Positions 38,040 through 47,367 of a stretch of DNA of 64,000 nucleotides are shown in pieces. Source of the stretch: Sphingomonadaceae bacterium (GTDB lineage Bacteria; Pseudomonadota; Alphaproteobacteria; Sphingomonadales; Sphingomonadaceae); NCBI GenBank assembly GCA_947476425.1, contig CANJQJ010000003.1, positions 1 through 64,000 of the forward strand, in the 5' to 3' direction. Below the pieces are notes generated by a model. It was not told the DNA's origin, did not search any database, and saw only the letters and a list, made by a program, of their open reading frames with translations. Each line of letters opens with the position of its first letter. Position 1 is the stretch's first letter. Both the position numbers and the translations under genes were made by a program.

Positions 38040-38254
38040 TTTTTCTTCCCCTGTTTTATCGGCAATACGTCTGCTCCGGCCTCGAACATCCTGTCAATCG
38101 ACCGGGTCGCACCATTCACCCCCAAGAGCCGATTGGCCAAACCCTTGTCCGAAACGACGCATCCGATCGACTTGTCGCGACCTTGCCAAGCGCACACCAT
38201 GATCCCGGATAAAAGGCGGGCCAAAGCCACCAAAGCTGTTTCGGGGAGATGATT

Positions 38255-40234
38255 ATGGGCCTGAAGCTCGTCTATGAACCGATCAAGATCAAGGGCGTCG
38301 AAGTCCGCAACCGCATCTCGCGGTCGTCACATGGCACCAACCTGTCGAACTACGGCCAGATCACCGATCGCCTGATCGAATATCACCTCGCTCGCGCAAA
38401 AGGCGGAGTCGGCCTGACATTCCTTGAAGCCGCAACCGTCCATCCAAGCTCGGTGCTCAGCCTCGCCAACATGGATGATACGGTGATCGACGGCTATCGC
38501 CGCCTGATGGCTGCGATCCGGCCGCACGGCATGCGCGTCTTCCAGCAGATCTGGCATGGCGGTCACATCTATCCGGTCCCCGACCAGTCCTCGCCATGGG
38601 GCGTTTCGGCAGTGCCAAACCCCGCCACCGGCATCGTTCCGAACCCGATGGGCCTCGCCGAGATCGAGGAAGTCATCGACTATTTCGCCAATGCCGCCCG
38701 CCGCTGCGTCGAAGGCGGGATCGAGGGCATCGAGGTCCACGCCTCGCATGGCTACCTCATCATGCAGTTCCTCAACCCGCTCGTGAACAACCGGACCGAT
38801 CGCTACGGCGGGTCGCTCGAAAACCGCATGCGCTTCCTTCGCGAAGTCCTCATCGCGGTCCGCGCACAGGTCCCGTCCGATTACCCCATCGGCATCCGAA
38901 TGGGCGCCAGCACGGGCGAACACGGGCTCGACGAACAGGAACTCGCCGTCGTCGTGCAGAAGCTCCAGTCGGAAAATCTGATCGATTTCCTCGATCTCAG
39001 CTGGAGCGACTATTTCAACTTCAAGTTCGTCGCCGCGATGGATCAGCCCGTCGGCTACCAGCTGCCCTCAAGCGAAAAGATCGCCGCTGCCTCAAAGGGC
39101 ATCCCGCGGATCATGATCGGGCGCTTCCGTACGCTCGACGAGGCCGAGCAGCTGCTCCGCGACGGCGTTACCGACATGGTCCACATGACCCGAGCCCACA
39201 TCGCCGATCCCGATATCGTCCGCAAGACAATGGCCGGCCATCCCGAGCAGGTCCGCGCCTGCATCGGTTGCAATCAGGCCTGCTGGCAGGGCATTAATCT
39301 AGGCTATCCGCTGGCCTGCACGATCAACCCGGCGGCCGGTCGCGAAGGCGATCTCGCCGAGGCGCTGATCGAGCCCGCCGAAAAGCCCGGCAAGGTTGTC
39401 GTCGTCGGCGGCGGACCAGCTGGCATGGAAGCCGCGCGCGTTGCAGCACTCCGCGGTCACAAGGTCGTGCTGTTCGAGGCACGCCAGCAGCTCGGTGGCC
39501 AGGTCGCCGTGGCGAAGCGCGCACCCCGCCTGCACACAATCGGTGACATCGCCTTCTGGCTCGAACAGGAAATCTACCGCCTCGGCGTCGACGTGCGCAC
39601 CAACGTCTATGCCGATGTCGATGATGTCGTCGCCGAGAAGCCCGATTTCATCGTCATCGCCTGCGGATCCATTCCCCGTGATAATGGCGTTCAATACGGC
39701 TATCCGGCCGAGCCAGTCCCCGGCTTCGACCAGCCTCATGTGCTTTCGGCGATCGACCTTCTCACCGGTGCCTCGGGCGACCTCGGCAAGAGCGCGGTCG
39801 TATTCGACGATGTCGGCCATTACGAGGCCATCGCCGCCGCCGAATTTCTGATCTCGAAAGGCCTCAAGGTCGCATTCGTCACCCGCTTTGCCAGCGTCGC
39901 GCCGCAGCTCGATCATGTCACCCGCGTCGATCCCGCATTTCGCCGCTTCGCCGAACAGGGCGATTTCCGGCTGATCGTGCGCGGCAGGATCGACGCGATT
40001 TCGCGCGACAGCTGCACCGTCCGCACGCTCTATCGCGCCGAGGCCGAGGAAATTCCGGCCGATACGCTGGTGTTCATCAATGCCAAGGAGCCGATGCGCG
40101 ATCTCTACGACACATTGCGCGAACGCGGCTTCGAAAAGGATCGCACGCTTGTCATCGTCGGCGATGCCCGCGCGCCCCGCGATCTTCACATGGCGATAAC
40201 CGAAGGGCACCGGCTCGTTCGCGCAATCGTGTGA
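38255..40234 (+). CDS. NADH:flavin oxidoreductase / 2,4-dienoyl-CoA reductase-type fusion (OYE + FAD domain)
   Basis: A 659-residue fusion. Residues 1-330 form an Old Yellow Enzyme TIM barrel with the catalytic-type HASHGYLIMQFLNPLVNNRTDRYGG. A [4Fe-4S] site has Cys 336, 339, 343 and 355. Residues about 380-659 form a pyridine-nucleotide/FAD domain starting VVVVGGGPAGMEAARVA. The architecture matches 2,4-dienoyl-CoA reductase, trimethylamine dehydrogenase and BaiH/BaiCD-type steroid enone reductases. Between the KstD-like and P450 genes, reduction of a cyclic dienone or enone is the best guess. GGGGAG precedes; ATG 38255 has the better spacing than ATG 38249. Confidence 0.85.
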   Translation: MGLKLVYEPIKIKGVEVRNRISRSSHGTNLSNYGQITDRLIEYHLARAKGGVGLTFLEAATVHPSSVLSLANMDDTVIDGYRRLMAAIRPHGMRVFQQIWHGGHIYPVPDQSSPWGVSAVPNPATGIVPNPMGLAEIEEVIDYFANAARRCVEGGIEGIEVHASHGYLIMQFLNPLVNNRTDRYGGSLENRMRFLREVLIAVRAQVPSDYPIGIRMGASTGEHGLDEQELAVVVQKLQSENLIDFLDLSWSDYFNFKFVAAMDQPVGYQLPSSEKIAAASKGIPRIMIGRFRTLDEAEQLLRDGVTDMVHMTRAHIADPDIVRKTMAGHPEQVRACIGCNQACWQGINLGYPLACTINPAAGREGDLAEALIEPAEKPGKVVVVGGGPAGMEAARVAALRGHKVVLFEARQQLGGQVAVAKRAPRLHTIGDIAFWLEQEIYRLGVDVRTNVYADVDDVVAEKPDFIVIACGSIPRDNGVQYGYPAEPVPGFDQPHVLSAIDLLTGASGDLGKSAVVFDDVGHYEAIAAAEFLISKGLKVAFVTRFASVAPQLDHVTRVDPAFRRFAEQGDFRLIVRGRIDAISRDSCTVRTLYRAEAEEIPADTLVFINAKEPMRDLYDTLRERGFEKDRTLVIVGDARAPRDLHMAITEGHRLVRAIV

Positions 40235-40238
40235 CGCA

Positions 40239-41534
40239 TCAATCCCAGATCAGGTGAATAGCCGCCGGTCCGCGAAACTGCATGCCAGATCGCCGCGGCG
40301 CGGGCTGCTCGGGATCTAGCCGCAGATTCGGCAGGTCGAGCAGCATGTTTGCCGCCGCCTCGATCTCGACTCGCGCTACCGGCATCCCAATGCACATATG
40401 GACGCCGCTCCCGAAACCCAGATTGACCTGCTGGTGCCGATCGAGATCGAATATATCGGGGCGCTCGAACATCCTCTCGTCGCGGTTGGCCGAGGCGATG
40501 ACCAGCGTCACCGCCGCCCCGGATGGTATCGCCACGCCGCCGACCTCGATATCGCGCGTCGCCTGTCGCGCAAGGAATCCGGCGACCGGTTCGAGGCGCA
40601 TCGACTCGTTCAAGGCGCGCGGCAGCAAGCTGCGATCGTCGCGCACCCTCGCAAGCAGCGCGGGATCCTCCAACAGGTGAAGCATCAGGTTGCCGATCGT
40701 TCGCGTGGTCGTCTCCGCCGCCGCCGGCAGCATCATCCGCACGATTCCGGCAATCTGGCCGTCGTCGAGCGACTGGCCCTCATATTCCGCCCGGATCAGC
40801 CGGTCGATCATCTCCTCACCGGTCGCGCCGCTACGTCGGCGTTCCGCGACCACCCCGCGAACGCTTTCGTCAAGCATCCCCGCCGCCGCGAAGGCGCGTT
40901 CCATCGAGGCTTCCAACTTGTCGGGATCGACCTGCGGGCCGTTCAGGATCTGCAAGGCCCAGTCGGCAAACTGCGCGACCGAGGCGCTGTCATCAGGAAA
41001 GCCGAGGATCGCGTAGATTGCCCGAACCGGAAACGGCATCGCCAGATCGGCGATCAGTTCCGCCCGCCCCTTCTCCCGCAATGGTATGCCATATTCGCGT
41101 TCGACCAGTGGCGCGACGATGATGTTCTTCCATCGCCGCGTCACCTCCGGTGAGAAGCAGGGTTGCAACAAGCGCCGCAGCACCCGGTGGGACTCGCCGT
41201 TGCGAGCGCTCAGGAACATCTCGCCCAGGAAGGTGCCAAGCCCATCCTTCAACAGTTCGGTGGACCAGTTGCTGTCGTCGCAAAGCACTGCGCTGACATC
41301 GGCGTGGCGGAACAGGCTGAACACTTGCCGCCCGGTGTTGGCATAGTCTGATTGCGAGGGAATCCCGTATTTCGCCAATATGTCCCCGGCCATCACTGGC
41401 GCTGAATCGCGCAAGCGAGCGTAGAGCGCATAGGGATCGTCCAGGTCCTCGGCGGCGTAAGTTGCGCTCACCGATCGAAATGCCCCGGTCGTATCCGGAA
41501 GCCCGTCCGACTGATTATCGACCGTCTGCACCAT
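40239..41534 (-). CDS. Cytochrome P450
   Basis: A 431-residue class I P450. I-helix AAAETTTR with the acid-alcohol pair Glu-Thr at about 274-275; ESMR as ExxR at 310-313; heme loop FGSGVHMCIG with Cys 381. FRHADVSAVLCDD and ESHRVLRRLLQPCFSPE are standard bacterial P450 helices. It converges on the OYE-fusion gene with 4 bases between stops and lies downstream of the hydrolase at 41586. The start is uncertain: ATG 41534 is used, and ATG 41555 would add seven residues. Confidence 0.9.
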   Translation of the reverse strand: MVQTVDNQSDGLPDTTGAFRSVSATYAAEDLDDPYALYARLRDSAPVMAGDILAKYGIPSQSDYANTGRQVFSLFRHADVSAVLCDDSNWSTELLKDGLGTFLGEMFLSARNGESHRVLRRLLQPCFSPEVTRRWKNIIVAPLVEREYGIPLREKGRAELIADLAMPFPVRAIYAILGFPDDSASVAQFADWALQILNGPQVDPDKLEASMERAFAAAGMLDESVRGVVAERRRSGATGEEMIDRLIRAEYEGQSLDDGQIAGIVRMMLPAAAETTTRTIGNLMLHLLEDPALLARVRDDRSLLPRALNESMRLEPVAGFLARQATRDIEVGGVAIPSGAAVTLVIASANRDERMFERPDIFDLDRHQQVNLGFGSGVHMCIGMPVARVEIEAAANMLLDLPNLRLDPEQPAPRRSGMQFRGPAAIHLIWD

Positions 41535-41585
41535 AGCCCGCGCCCATCCTCCCATTATTGTGGTTATGGATTCCGAAAACGCGAT

Positions 41586-42443
41586 CTAGCCCTCGTCGAC
41601 GATTGGGTTTCGCAATATGCCGACCTTCTCGACCTCAACTTCGCAGACGTCACCGGCCTTCATGTACAAGGGCGGCTTTCGCGCCATGCCGACCCCGGCC
41701 GGCGTGCCGGTGACCAGCAAGTCACCGGGTAGCAGCGTCAATGCTTCGCTGAGCACCGAAACCAGCTGTGCGACTCCGAACACCATGTCGGACGTGTTCG
41801 ACGATTGCACCACCACCCCGTTGAGCCGCGTCTCGATCGCCAGCCCTGCGGCAGCCGCCGGAATTTCGTCGGCGGTAACGACCCACGGCCCGAATGCACC
41901 GGTCGCGTCGAAATTCTTGCCGATCGTCCATTGCGGAGTCTTGAATTGATAGTCGCGGATCGACGCATCGTTGAACAGCGCATAACCCATCACATGATCC
42001 AGCGCGTCGGCCAGCGGGATGTGGCGCCCCCCTTTGCCGATGATCGCGACAAGCTCGCCCTCGTAATCGAGCGCGGTGGAAACCCTGGGACGAACGATTG
42101 CTTCCTCATGGCCGATCAGGCTCGACGCAAAACGTCCGAATATCGTTGGATAGTCCGGCTGCTCGTAAGGCGATTCCTTGGTGTGATCGCGATAGTTCAG
42201 CCCGACGCAAAGAATCTTCCGAGGTTCGCGCAGCGGAGGCAGGAACGAGAAGCTGCCCGCCTCGAACACATCACCATCGCATAGCAGCGCATGATAGGAT
42301 CCAAGATCACCCTGCGACTGGATCGCGACATCGAGCGACTGCACCGAGCCGTCGTCGACGAAGCAGCGTCCACGAACACTGCCGTCCGGTGCCAGCGTTG
42401 CCGCAGCCGGCCCACGAGCAGTCGAAATCGTTGCGAAACGCAT
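41586..42443 (-). CDS. Fumarylacetoacetate hydrolase-family protein
   Basis: A 285-residue protein. The C-terminal approximately 210 residues match the FAH domain: KILCVGLNYRDHTKES, PTIFGRFASSLIGHEEAIVRPRVSTALDYEGELVAIIGKGG (with metal ligands in YEGELV), DASIRDYQFKTPQWTIGKNFDATGAFGPWVVTADEIP, and LLPGDLLVTGTPAGVG. FAH-family members hydrolyse or decarboxylate beta-diketone and ring-cleavage products (for example HpcE/HpaG, acylpyruvases). The N-terminal lead (RGPAAATLAPDGSVRGRCFVDDGSV) is common in this group. It is a candidate C-C hydrolase for the lower part of the pathway. The P450 follows it on the same strand. Confidence 0.85.
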   Translation of the reverse strand: MRFATISTARGPAAATLAPDGSVRGRCFVDDGSVQSLDVAIQSQGDLGSYHALLCDGDVFEAGSFSFLPPLREPRKILCVGLNYRDHTKESPYEQPDYPTIFGRFASSLIGHEEAIVRPRVSTALDYEGELVAIIGKGGRHIPLADALDHVMGYALFNDASIRDYQFKTPQWTIGKNFDATGAFGPWVVTADEIPAAAAGLAIETRLNGVVVQSSNTSDMVFGVAQLVSVLSEALTLLPGDLLVTGTPAGVGMARKPPLYMKAGDVCEVEVEKVGILRNPIVDEG

Positions 42444-42653
42444 TTTATTCTCTCCGGTGATGACTTGGCTTGATCGAGACTGACCCGCCCCAGCGATCAT
42501 TGGCAAGCGCGCCGAACATCGCAATTCAGACTCGATCGTCTTGCACCGGACATCACGCCAGTCCCCCCGCCCGAAGACAGGCGGCAGCTTGGGTGACTCG
42601 GTCGCAAATCATGACCGCTCTGGCCAACGTATCGCCCAACCATGAGGTCGACC

Positions 42654-43985: not shown

Positions 43986-44633
43986 TCAGTTCGCAGCGTT
44001 GGCGCTTTGGCGCCCTGCCTGTGCATGCGCGCTGCCGCTCCCGGATCCGGTCGCAGATCCGCTGATGGCATGCGAAGCGCCACCTGCACTATTGCTCACA
44101 TCCGAAGCATGCTGTTGCGCCGCCCGTCCCGCACCCTGAGCGGCACCAGTGGCCGTACCGGCGGCACTGCCCGCCAGCGATCCGACTGCGTCAGTCCCGA
44201 CGCCCTGCGCGCTCAGGCCAACGCTCTTGTCGATCGACTGCGTCGCGGTCGCCCCACCGCTGCCATTGAGCATCGAACCTGCCGGACCCGTTGCCGAAGT
44301 CGCGCTGTTGAGCGTGCCGGTCACGGTGCCCGCAAGCCCTGCGTTGGCGCTGGCAGAACCGGAATGCGGATCCAGCGACTTGGAGGCAGTCGCGGTGCCA
44401 GTGCCGTTGACCGATCCAGTGATGCTCTGGCTCGCCGACGTCACCGAATTCAGCGTTCCACCCAAGCCACCAGCGCCGTTCAATGTGCCACCGACAGTAC
44501 CGCCCAGCGTTCCGCTCAACGTCCCGCCGAGACCGCCGCCCAGACCACCGCCGCCGAGCAGCTGCGCTTGGACGGGGGCAGTCGCGAGTCCGGCGAGAAG
44601 CATCGCATTACCGAGAATGATGAACTTATTCAT
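43986..44633 (-). CDS. Secreted Gly/Ala/Ser/Thr-rich low-complexity protein
   Basis: A 215-residue protein with a clear signal peptide (1-24, ending PVQAQ). The mature part is built from short repeats such as GGGLGG, GTLSGTLGGTV, GTGTAT, SAGSAAGTATGAAQ and ends HAQAGRQSANAAN. No catalytic motif. The composition suggests a surface, fibre-like or matrix protein, possibly a substrate of the adjacent S8 protease. AGGAGA precedes the ATG. An ECF-type promoter (44681-44706) shared with the protease gene lies upstream. Confidence 0.7.
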   Translation of the reverse strand: MNKFIILGNAMLLAGLATAPVQAQLLGGGGLGGGLGGTLSGTLGGTVGGTLNGAGGLGGTLNSVTSASQSITGSVNGTGTATASKSLDPHSGSASANAGLAGTVTGTLNSATSATGPAGSMLNGSGGATATQSIDKSVGLSAQGVGTDAVGSLAGSAAGTATGAAQGAGRAAQQHASDVSNSAGGASHAISGSATGSGSGSAHAQAGRQSANAAN

Positions 44634-44680
44634 GATCTGTCTCCTGAATTTGCGAGTTCTTCCGAACCCGTCATGAGGAG

Positions 44681-44706
44681 AACGACGGCTGAATCCCGTT
44701 TCATCC
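44681..44706 (-). promoter_or_regulatory. ECF-sigma promoter motif for the Gly-rich secreted protein
   Basis: Reading the minus strand: GGATGAAACG, 8 bases, CCGTCGTT, ending 48 bases before the ATG at 44633. The same elements with the same spacing occur at 46065-46090 before the protease. The match over 18 fixed positions is exact, so a shared sigma factor is strongly suggested. Confidence 0.6.
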
Positions 44707-44713
44707 CGCATCG

Positions 44714-46036
44714 TCATTTTTTTGCGATCACCAACTTTGGTTCGATCCGGCAAGGTCGACAGACGATGCCCTGTCCAACCTTGCCCTTGCCCGGAACGGC
44801 TTCCGCTGAAACCACGCCCAACGCGCCGCGTCCCCCGCTGGAAGCCAGCGCCAGTCGCGCCGCTACCAGCGGAGCCGCAAACGACGTACCCCGCACGCTT
44901 GCATAGCCCTGTCCGGGCAGCGCCGCCGCCATCTCGGCACCGGGTGCCGCAAAATCGAGATGCGCGGCGCGACCGGCTTCGAGCAGCGCACGATCATGCG
45001 AATCCACGCCCGTTACGGCGATCACCCCCGGATAGGATGCCGGATACTGCGGAGGCGCCGCCGGGCCGTCATTGCCGACCGCCGCGACGATGAGCACGCC
45101 CTTGGCCTGCGCAGCCTGCACCGCACGCTCGAGCAGGCGGTTTGGCGGGCCGACCAGGCTGATCGTCACGACCTTTACCCGGCGCTCGACCAGCCAGCCT
45201 AGCCCGCGCACGATCAGTTCCGCCGATCCCGCGGCGGGTTCACCACCATAGACATCGGCGACAAGCAGGCTTGCCCCGGGTGCCGCACCACGGAACGCCC
45301 CGTCAACGCCCACCAGCAGCGAGGCGATTGCCGTACCATGGCCGCTCGCTCTTGGTCCGGACGGCGCAAACCCGCGCTGCTCGATCAACGCATGCGCAAG
45401 AGCCGGGTGCGATGCGACGCCTCCGTCGATCATTCCCATCGACGCGACGTTTGTAGATAGCCGTCCGTCCGATGTCGCGCCTGCGGAAGGCCCCAACGCG
45501 CCGCCCGCAGGTTCGAAGACATGATTGACCTCATATTGGCCGTCGGGATCCAGCTTGCGCAGCGTTTTGAGGCCGTCTTCCGCATCCTTCCCCCTGGGCG
45601 GCGCCAGCACGACCAGCGATATTCCCAACCCCGGCACATCCTCGCCCCGCAAACGCGAGAAACCCTTGCCCAGGGCCGTTGCAACCAAAGCTGGTGCCGG
45701 ATCGAGCAGGATGATTTCACCGCGACGAATTGGATTGCCCTTGTCGTCCGCATCCAGCACCCTGCGATTATCATGGACCAGCGTACGCAAACGCTGGCGC
45801 CGAAGGTCGAACAGCGATGCGCTGTCGAGCCCTTCCAGCAAGCGCGGGGATTCGAGGCTGCTCGCCACCGAACCAAGCACGGGCACGCTGCCGGTAACGG
45901 GTTGCAGCGCGCCGCCGACGAGTTGCCCGGGAAGCGCGCCAAGCCCCCCCGGCAGCAGTTGCGCTCCTGCTGCAACAGCGCCAAGCGCGACACTGGCAAG
46001 CGCTACGCATGTCAGGGTTGATCGGATCACGGACAT
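44714..46036 (-). CDS. Secreted S8 (subtilisin-like) serine protease
   Basis: A 440-residue protein with a signal peptide (1-25, AGAQ). A Gly/Pro/Val-rich segment follows to about 60, then a propeptide-like region. The catalytic domain has Asp 204 (MGMIDGGV), His 233 (SGHGTAIASL), oxyanion Asn 322 (AAVGNDG) and Ser 385 (GTSFAAP), the complete subtilase triad. It ends with CRPCRIEPKLVIAKK, which contains two Cys. It is divergent from the ECF sigma gene with a shared palindromic promoter. It probably acts in the periplasm or outside the cell in response to an envelope signal. Confidence 0.85.
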   Translation of the reverse strand: MSVIRSTLTCVALASVALGAVAAGAQLLPGGLGALPGQLVGGALQPVTGSVPVLGSVASSLESPRLLEGLDSASLFDLRRQRLRTLVHDNRRVLDADDKGNPIRRGEIILLDPAPALVATALGKGFSRLRGEDVPGLGISLVVLAPPRGKDAEDGLKTLRKLDPDGQYEVNHVFEPAGGALGPSAGATSDGRLSTNVASMGMIDGGVASHPALAHALIEQRGFAPSGPRASGHGTAIASLLVGVDGAFRGAAPGASLLVADVYGGEPAAGSAELIVRGLGWLVERRVKVVTISLVGPPNRLLERAVQAAQAKGVLIVAAVGNDGPAAPPQYPASYPGVIAVTGVDSHDRALLEAGRAAHLDFAAPGAEMAAALPGQGYASVRGTSFAAPLVAARLALASSGGRGALGVVSAEAVPGKGKVGQGIVCRPCRIEPKLVIAKK

Positions 46037-46058
46037 CTCCTTTTATTTTCCTGTCACG

Positions 46059-46090
46059 GGATTAAACGACGGAGAAGGATCGTTTCATCC
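46059..46090. promoter_or_regulatory. Bidirectional ECF-sigma promoter (protease and sigma genes)
   Basis: On the minus strand GGATGAAACG (46090-46081), 8 bases, CCGTCGTT (46072-46065) points at the protease ATG at 46036. On the plus strand GGATTAAACG (46059-46068), 8 bases, GGATCGTT (46077-46084) points at the sigma-factor start at 46117. The two boxes interlock as an imperfect palindrome, so one site can fire both ways. This fits autoregulation of the sigma factor together with its target. Confidence 0.6.
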
Positions 46091-46116
46091 AGTATCGGGA
46101 TGGATGGATAACGAAC

Positions 46117-46617
46117 TTGGAAGCAATCGCCATTTCATTCGACCAGGGAATTACCGCAATGCTGCCGCGTCTGCGGCGCTTTGCCCACGGCTTGTGCGGC
46201 AATGCGACTGACGCGGACGATCTGGCACAGTTGACCGTCGAGCGCGCCCTCCGTGCCCGTCTTCAATGGCAGGAAGGGACTCGACTCGACAGCTGGCTCT
46301 ACCGGATCATGCGAAACATCTGGATCGATATCGTGCGGGCACGCGGTCGCATGGAAAAGGTGATGCTGCCCGAAGAAGCCGGCGCGCAAACAGGCTATGA
46401 TCCGGTGCCGGAGGTCGAGGCTAGACTCGAGCTTGGCAACGTGATGCGCGCGATGGCCCAGCTGCCCGAGGAACAGCGCGAGGCAGTCGCGCTCGTGCTG
46501 GTCGAGGGTGTCGGCTATCGTGAGGCGGCCGAGATCCTCGCCATCCCGGTGGGCACCTTGTCGAGCCGGCTTGTCCGCGGTCGGAATGCCCTGTTGACGC
46601 TTTTGGGCGGAGTTTGA
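46117..46617 (+). CDS. ECF-type RNA polymerase sigma factor
   Basis: A 166-residue sigma factor with region 2 (ITAMLPRLRRFAHGLCGNATDADDLAQLTVERAL, then WLYRIMRNIWIDIVRARGR) and region 4 (LPEEQREAVALVLVEGVGYREAAEILAIPVGTLSSRLVRGR). No region 3, hence extracytoplasmic-function type. The start is TTG at 46117, or ATG at 46159 (15th codon) if a shorter form is made. The stop is 3 bases from the start of the anti-sigma gene. It is probably autoregulated from the palindromic promoter at 46059-46090. Confidence 0.9.
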   Translation: MEAIAISFDQGITAMLPRLRRFAHGLCGNATDADDLAQLTVERALRARLQWQEGTRLDSWLYRIMRNIWIDIVRARGRMEKVMLPEEAGAQTGYDPVPEVEARLELGNVMRAMAQLPEEQREAVALVLVEGVGYREAAEILAIPVGTLSSRLVRGRNALLTLLGGV

Positions 46618-46620
46618 AAG

Positions 46621-47367
46621 ATGATCGAAGACAAGACATTGCTTGCCTATCTTGACGGTGAACTCGACAAGCGGAGCGCCGCGATGGTCGAGGCGGCCGT
46701 CGCCGCCGATCCCGAGTTGGCGCGCAAGCTGGAGCGACATCGCCGGCTTCGCGACGTTCTTCACGCGAGCTTCGATCCACTTCTCGAGCAACCGCTTCCT
46801 CCCGGCCTCGCCGCCGCGGTCTCGCGCAACAAAGTCGTCAACATCGACACATTCCGCCGTCCGCCCAAGACCGGACGCCCGGCCACCAACTGGACGCAAT
46901 GGAGCGCGATCGCCGCAACCCTCGTTGCTGGCGTAGTCGGCGGCTACATGATCAAGCCAGATGCCAAGCCCAGCGGATCCGGGCCGATTGTCGAACGTGA
47001 TGGCCATATCATCGCGGCAAGTGACGTAGCGCAAGCGCTCGACACGCAGCTCGCCAGCGCCGGCACAACCGGACCCGTCCGCGTCGTCCTGACATTTCGG
47101 AACCAGCAGGGCGAGTTCTGCCGCAGCTTCGAGGGCAAGGCCGCATCCGGCGTAGCCTGTCGACTTGGCCGAGATTGGCGGATCGCAGGCTTCTATCCCG
47201 GTGACCAGACCCAGCACGGCGACTATCGCACGGCCGCTGCGGGAGATCCCCGGATCATGGCGCTGGTCGAAGACATGATCGAGGGCGCGCCGCTCGATTC
47301 AAGTGAGGAACGAAACGCGCGCGACAGCGGCTGGAAAGCCGGGTTGAGTCTGCCTGCCCCGGGCTAA
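46621..47367 (+). CDS. Anti-sigma factor with single membrane anchor
   Basis: A 248-residue protein. The N-terminal approximately 60 residues have the anti-sigma (zinc-finger-like or RskA-like) helical layout: DKTLLAYLDGELDKRSAAMVEAAVAADPELARKLERHRRLRDVL. The classic HxxxCxxC zinc motif is absent. One transmembrane helix lies at about 100-120 (WSAIAATLVAGVVGGYM). The periplasmic C-terminal domain holds CRSFEGKAASGVACRLGRDWRI, whose two Cys could form a redox-sensitive disulfide. It is coupled to the sigma factor and should sequester it at the membrane until an envelope signal arrives. Confidence 0.8.
   Translation: MIEDKTLLAYLDGELDKRSAAMVEAAVAADPELARKLERHRRLRDVLHASFDPLLEQPLPPGLAAAVSRNKVVNIDTFRRPPKTGRPATNWTQWSAIAATLVAGVVGGYMIKPDAKPSGSGPIVERDGHIIAASDVAQALDTQLASAGTTGPVRVVLTFRNQQGEFCRSFEGKAASGVACRLGRDWRIAGFYPGDQTQHGDYRTAAAGDPRIMALVEDMIEGAPLDSSEERNARDSGWKAGLSLPAPG

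Follow-up and report, generated by a model that had tools for sequence, protein, structure and literature searches.

A putative palindromic, dual-use ECF-type promoter between a sigma/anti-sigma operon and a divergent S8 protease gene in sphingomonads

In the window, the stretch of 64,000 nucleotides from a Sphingomonadaceae bacterium analysed here, a gene for a sigma factor of 166 amino acids lies at 46117-46617 on the plus strand, with a likely TTG start. Its product matches the Pfam models of regions 2 and 4 (Sigma70_r2, 4e-14; Sigma70_r4_2, 2.9e-14) without a match to a region 3 model, and this domain content identifies it as a predicted ECF sigma factor (group IV sigma-70). Region 2 was found at eight places in the window's genome. 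Divergently from the sigma gene, an S8 (subtilase) protease with a signal-peptide-like start is encoded at 44714-46036 on the minus strand (Pfam Peptidase_S8, 3.9e-27); judging from the sequence, a GTG at 46030 would be an alternative start. This protease, on the other side of the dyad described below, is the only S8 match in the genome. On the same strand, 43986-44633 encodes a Gly-rich protein, predicted to be exported, for which no Pfam or NCBIfam match was obtained; its signal-peptide-like start is followed by AQLLGGGGLGG. By eye, the protease has a similar stretch, AQLLPGGLG, past its own signal-peptide-like start (both within 43986-46036). Adjacent genes at 38249-42524 appear to encode an old-yellow-enzyme-type oxidoreductase and a cytochrome P450 (by eye) together with an FAA hydrolase (Pfam), which suggests a catabolic cluster.

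The anti-sigma gene (46621-47367, plus strand) starts 3 bp past the sigma stop codon. Its family matches, a weak NCBIfam one (NF052375, 1.8e-07), zf-HC2 and RseA_N, all fall below cut-off, and its identification also draws on an alignment and a structure model. The model shows a helical domain at the N terminus, then a helix (residues 92-110) suited to spanning the membrane, and a domain at the C terminus. With Foldseek, the N-terminal part pairs with the cytoplasmic domain of MucA (8z6g_E, AlgU-MucA; probability 0.93, E 0.46); none of the 406 matches reached E <=0.001 and MucA was the only sensible one among the best 50 of the 406. By its modelled anatomy, the protein looks like a cognate membrane anti-sigma factor encoded in the sigma operon. 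C167 and C180 of the C-terminal domain are invariant in all 41 aligned sequences; in this probably periplasmic part of the protein, they are a possible disulfide or redox sensing point.

Between the sigma and protease genes lies a 32-bp dyad (46059-46090), GGATTAAACGAC-N8-ATCGTTTCATCC, in which two putative ECF-type promoters stand face to face and have both boxes in common; its pattern can be written GGATKAAACG-N12-CGTTTMATCC. The sigma-ward promoter (46059-46084, plus strand) is GGATTAAACG-ACGGAGAA-GGATCGTT, with GGATTAAA(C) as -35 box and CGTT at 46081-46084 as -10 box. The protease-ward promoter (46065-46090, minus strand) is GGATGAAACG-ATCCTTCT-CCGTCGTT, with GGATGAAA(C) as -35 box and CGTT at 46068-46065 as -10 box. 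A third, one-way site, GGATGAAACG-GGATTCAG-CCGTCGTT, is found ahead of the Gly-rich gene, just past the protease stop codon (44681-44706, minus strand). These three motifs had been proposed in an initial annotation of this DNA, and they are exactly in the sequence where it had placed them; the identity of the protease and Gly-rich sites at all 18 named positions was confirmed as well.

With up to three mismatches, the pattern matches four times in the window against a mean of 0.66 in shuffled sequences, and none of 100 shuffles contained four or more matches. In the whole genome (2,814,686 bases, 88 contigs, 99.39% complete), the matches with no or one mismatch are these three sites only; a fourth place, at two mismatches, is at chance level, the reversed control pattern also giving one match at two. 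The looser GGATKAAA-N14-CGTT again returned only the three sites (control, 0). As no site was added, a larger regulon in this genome was rejected.

Related loci were collected with the anti-sigma protein, searched in 298 genomes of the family; matches were obtained in 102 of them, at 113 places of which the window is one. We fetched 93 of the 112 others, the 19 left being 18 places with E >3.4e-14 and a partial one in genome G107 at 1.7e-16. Locus L093, truncated where its contig stops, and L151, with no sigma match, were dropped to give a set of 91, and L142 (22 aa) was dropped before the tree; seven loci chosen for pattern matches (L157-L163) were counted apart. We observed that 81 of the 91 protein-found loci carry the dyad ahead of the sigma gene, with the opposite-strand site at an offset of exactly +6, so that the comparison proposed earlier, with genomes carrying the same sigma/anti-sigma pair, came out in favour of the motif. 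When the window and the seven pattern-chosen loci are included, the count is 89 of 99. The spacer is 12 in all 81 pairs of exact arms upstream of sigma. Ten loci have no dyad: L121, L130, L142, L143, L148 and L152-L156. The core conserved in relatives is about GGAWKAAACG-N12-CGTTTMWTCC for the dyad and about GRATKAA(A)-N14-CGTT for the one-way site. The motif as first formulated, GGATKAAACG-N8-SSRTCGTT, is present in the window as given, but its CC/GG and the R before CGTT are not conserved in relatives.

A third site near the S8 stop codon, matching at least 10 of 12 positions, was detected in 88 of 97 loci; the controls gave 2/97 (reversed motif), 4/97 (other strand) and 5/93 (further downstream). 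Of these 88 sites, 80 are followed by a longest open reading frame whose initial 110 residues are glycine to at least 12%, and in 82 cases the longest reading frame has an A[QRC][LIV][LFV] start, comparable to the AQLL of the window. There is no reading frame behind the site in L143, and another kind of protein is encoded in L130, L147 and L155. With at most one mismatch, the one-way pattern was found in 73 of 397 family genomes and its reversed control in 12.

We then compared the bases of the two kinds of site. The dyad frequencies come from loci selected with a dyad score, and the scores behind both sets take in most of the positions compared; for one-way sites, position 10 and the palindromic end (the would-be second -35 box) are left out of the score. 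This end is present in none of the 85 third sites from loci with dyads. Among the 89 dyads, 87-89 retain the outer GGA at either end and all have G10, against 24/85 for G10 at one-way sites. The latter keep A6 (82/85) and A7 (84/85) and, more weakly, A8 (61/85) and C9 (58/85). Since A6 and A7 are kept in both kinds of site and G10 is invariant in dyads only, the -35 box is probably about GGATKAA(AC) and the -10 box CGTT; in the dyad, the CG at the end of AAACG would serve the -10 box of the other strand. This pattern is expected of dual-use boxes and not of an operator.

In some relatives (L085, L118, L120, L132, L134, L136 and L141), a small exported protein of about 108-117 amino acids with a signal-peptide-like start is encoded convergently with the anti-sigma gene and has a one-way site of its own. 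Its gene lies in the last ~500 bases of each locus, as oriented by the sigma gene, and the site is clear in 7 of 8 loci inspected, all picked for having a match. This protein looks like a candidate fourth member of the regulon in relatives. Two versions of it gave no Pfam match above cut-off, and a search of the window's genome with the L136 protein, made without a positive control, returned no homologue.

The dyad can also be found from the DNA alone. With at most one mismatch, the 32-bp pattern is present in 82 of 396 genomes of the order, all of them from the window's family (82/313, against 0/83 in other families), and its reversed control had no match in any row of these 396 genomes. An anti-sigma match exists in all 29 dyad genomes that the anti-sigma search also covered, as a comparison of the two lists indicated. 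The dyad lies between a sigma homologue and a divergent S8 gene in 30/30 returned loci of the order, window included. In the class, an exact match was found in 5 of 385 genomes, namely the window's own, another from the same family and three from two other families; in these two other families, the dyad is again between a sigma homologue and a divergent S8 gene (3/3 loci). The GTDB representatives contain at least 120 dyads, and among the matches listed 117 adjoin a sigma homologue. Among the 120 listed, 106 also adjoin a divergent S8 gene in reach, 10 more have less than 800 bp on that side, and one (L268) has no S8 gene. Three have neither sigma nor S8 (in Exiguobacterium, a cyanobacterial MAG and Bifidobacterium), and we took them as chance matches. 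The 80 titles of dyad genomes among the matches listed are mostly those of sphingomonad genera, though several name Brevundimonas and one Caulobacter; Sphingobium sp. SYK-6 (L228) is among the representatives listed with a dyad. Sphingomonas parapaucimobilis YK209 has a perfect dyad and a third site together with annotated S8, sigma and anti-sigma genes, and Novosphingobium sp. ES2-1 has kept the sigma-ward site, its S8-ward half being altered. Four copies of the same dyad were seen on contigs C1, C2, C9 and C10 of genome G598, each at most 2.4 kb from the contig start, perhaps a repeat or an assembly duplication. The dyad is thus a DNA signature that locates the module without any protein search.

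The locus resembles that of Sinorhizobium meliloti RpoE6/EcfR6/SMa0142, whose sigma factor is homologous and for which PMC6180224 describes a downstream anti-sigma factor with cytoplasmic, membrane and periplasmic parts, a divergent protease and further targets nearby. When we compared the pSymA locus, which is unannotated in its sequence record, with the window, the sigma factors were 45.5% and the divergent S8 proteases 35% identical; the pSymA protease promoter GGAATAGACCGACGACTCAGCCGTT is identical to the one given in the paper, and the pSymA RpoE6 locus has no dyad. According to the same text, overexpression of RpoE6 raises the divergent serine protease and ecfR6, and the protease start was mapped 9 nt past the CGTT of GGAATA-N15-CGTT (PMC6180224). 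By analogy with SMa0142, transcription would start near 46093 for the sigma gene and near 46056 for the S8 protease gene of the window; for the Gly-rich gene, the mapped S. meliloti start would predict a position near 44672. The two loci differ in that the RpoE6 protease promoter is GGAATA-N15-CGTT without a dyad, whereas the window has GGATKAAA as -35 box and one palindrome for both genes. Moreover, the mapped rpoE6 start has RpoD/RpoH-like motifs (PMC6180224), so that autoregulation from an ECF promoter is not general in the RpoE6 group.

RpoE6 is an ECF26 factor, and the arrangement with a divergent serine protease gene is described as widely conserved in ECF26 (PMC6180224). The window shares this trait, its sigma gene being divergent from a serine protease gene. 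The ECF26 promoter consensus is -35 GGAATA and -10 GT, and the window has GGATT or GGATG at -35, though its -10 box CGTT contains GT; GGAT is found sigma-ward in 82 of 89 dyads. Since the promoter consensus is different, we call the sigma factor of the window, on sequence grounds, ECF26-like and not a member. Another comparison is offered by the EcfG general stress promoters of Sphingopyxis granuli (GGAAC-N16-CGTT), which serve 79 transcriptional units, nepR-ecfG being generally divergent from phyR, according to PMC7083833 and PMC8103513. Like the window's sites, they have CGTT as -10 box and a similar spacing, but their -35 box is another one, three sites stand here against the 79 units, and a palindrome common to both genes occurs, as far as these sources go, only here.

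The initial annotation had attributed all three sites to one sigma factor. This proposal gains support from their exclusivity in the genome, their co-conservation with the sigma gene and their ECF-like spacing, and also from the S. meliloti relative, whose protease promoter has been mapped, with a start 9 nt past CGTT. We infer that the sigma factor encoded beside the dyad is the reader of the sites. At position 4, the third site mostly agrees with the sigma-ward half of the dyad: among the 7 loci with GGAA dyads, 6 have A there and one has C, and 77 of the 78 with GGAT dyads have T. The dyad and the third site change together. In the sigma factor, the region 4.2 residue after SRx, which is V153 in the region 4.2 helix of the window's protein, is V in 73/83 GGAT rows against 1/15 GGAA rows, 8 of these 15 GGAA labels having been set by us for loci without a dyad; when only GGAA rows with a dyad are kept, V is found in 0/7. 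The ten GGAT rows without V (10/83) include L066 and L072, which have A. We take this residue to be the equivalent of F175 in sigma-E of E. coli, which is positioned close to the DNA of the -35 element. On the tree, there are three independent pairs (starred branches), with a median sign-test p of 0.25, and the residue changes 10 times and the base 4 times; the covariation of residue and base is therefore only suggestive, with few independent events and no significance on the tree.

Natural variants of the locus bear on how the dyad is used. Six remote loci (sigma 42-49% identical) have GGAATA-type sites, in both directions in L148, L154, L155 and L156, where they match at 9 or 10 of 10 positions (reversed motif, 0/6), and sigma-ward only in L152 and L153. 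Some further variants (L143, L130, L121 and L268) are single cases. In L143, the S8 gene is ~250 bp off, the S8-ward half has decayed and the sigma-ward site is kept. L130, whose S8 frame looks broken, has likewise a decayed S8-ward half and a kept sigma-ward half; its sigma frame also looks garbled, and poor sequence may be the cause. L121 has neither an upstream S8 gene nor any remaining dyad. A counter-example is L268, where a perfect dyad (2770-2801) adjoins the sigma gene without an S8 gene. By eye, the far side of that dyad holds a tiny reading frame and a hairpin-like stretch.

One could imagine that only one direction works and that the symmetry is incidental, the complement of the -10 box being by chance part of the -35 box. 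The retention of A6, A7 and, more weakly, A8 and C9 at one-way sites does indicate that part of the symmetry is intrinsic, and L268 has kept both halves without S8. We nevertheless consider this explanation unlikely, given the outer GGA in both halves of nearly all dyads (in loci chosen by dyad score), the invariant G10 that one-way sites mostly lack, and the decay of the S8-ward half alone in L143 and in L130 (maybe poor sequence). That the third site, which belongs to the same set, lacks symmetry suggests that the dyad keeps its own for two-way use. Operators usually look like this, long palindromes between divergent genes, but it is very improbable, and we rejected it, that the dyad is the operator of a dimeric repressor or activator over unrelated promoters. 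The co-conserved third site has the same boxes and spacing and is one-way (palindromic end, 0/85), where an operator would have all its sites palindromic; the boxes are spaced as in ECF promoters; an ECF promoter of this type has been mapped for the related S. meliloti S8 gene (PMC6180224); and in four of six loci of the remote clade, each direction has a GGAATA site of its own (reversed control, 0/6). The absence of the palindromic end from one-way sites thus leads us to read the dyad as a promoter with dual-use halves.

In the bidirectional promoters studied by Warman and co-workers, the symmetry is reportedly that of the -10 element, the promoters being housekeeping ones, and the transcripts are said to be often spurious. 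Such promoters are one DNA stretch read both ways by sequence symmetry (Warman et al. 2021, as cited in PMC12340889). In the present case, by comparison, both the -35 and the -10 boxes are common and the protein genes on either side are kept across genera. We found no palindromic shared ECF promoter, nor this module in sphingomonads, in the open-licence literature. The arrangement of sigma, anti-sigma and divergent protease genes is known in kind; what we did not find described is the single dual-use palindrome, its fixed spacing and its spread.

We estimate at roughly 85% the probability that the sigma/anti-sigma pair is autoregulated and, through the dual-use dyad and the one-way site, also drives the S8 protease and the Gly-rich protein. 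By what is known of the family, the membrane anti-sigma factor would hold the sigma factor until an envelope signal arrives. Freed sigma would join RNA polymerase and read GGATKAAA(C) at -35 and CGTT at -10, as conservation supports; its targets would be the operon that encodes it together with the anti-sigma factor, the S8 protease gene on the divergent side and the gene for the Gly-rich exported protein. Each end box of the dyad would act as -35 box on one strand and, through its AAACG, as -10 box on the other, and the holoenzyme would take the dyad in one of two orientations, both directions presumably being functional. As two holoenzyme footprints would coincide, the dyad would accommodate one polymerase at a time, a mutual exclusion that we infer from the geometry, and each initiation would yield either the sigma and anti-sigma RNA or the protease RNA. 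The Gly-rich gene would fire from its own one-way site. We would give even odds to a broader proposal, that this is a single-occupancy two-way promoter with 10-bp boxes, maintained in at least two orders (sphingomonads; Brevundimonas/Caulobacter), in which the choice at initiation fixes the ratio of the two transcripts and damps positive feedback, the symmetry being selected and not inherent, to judge from the one-way promoters of this sigma factor.

ECF sigma factors commonly autoregulate, normally with one promoter for the feedback and another for the output. Here, feedback and output appear to share one dual-use palindrome, whose sequence and spacing are conserved over many genera. The dyad may therefore offer a natural system for studying how polymerases share or compete for one site. 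For a sigma module that is widespread, it also predicts which nearby genes make up the regulon, namely those for a secreted protease and a Gly-rich exported protein.
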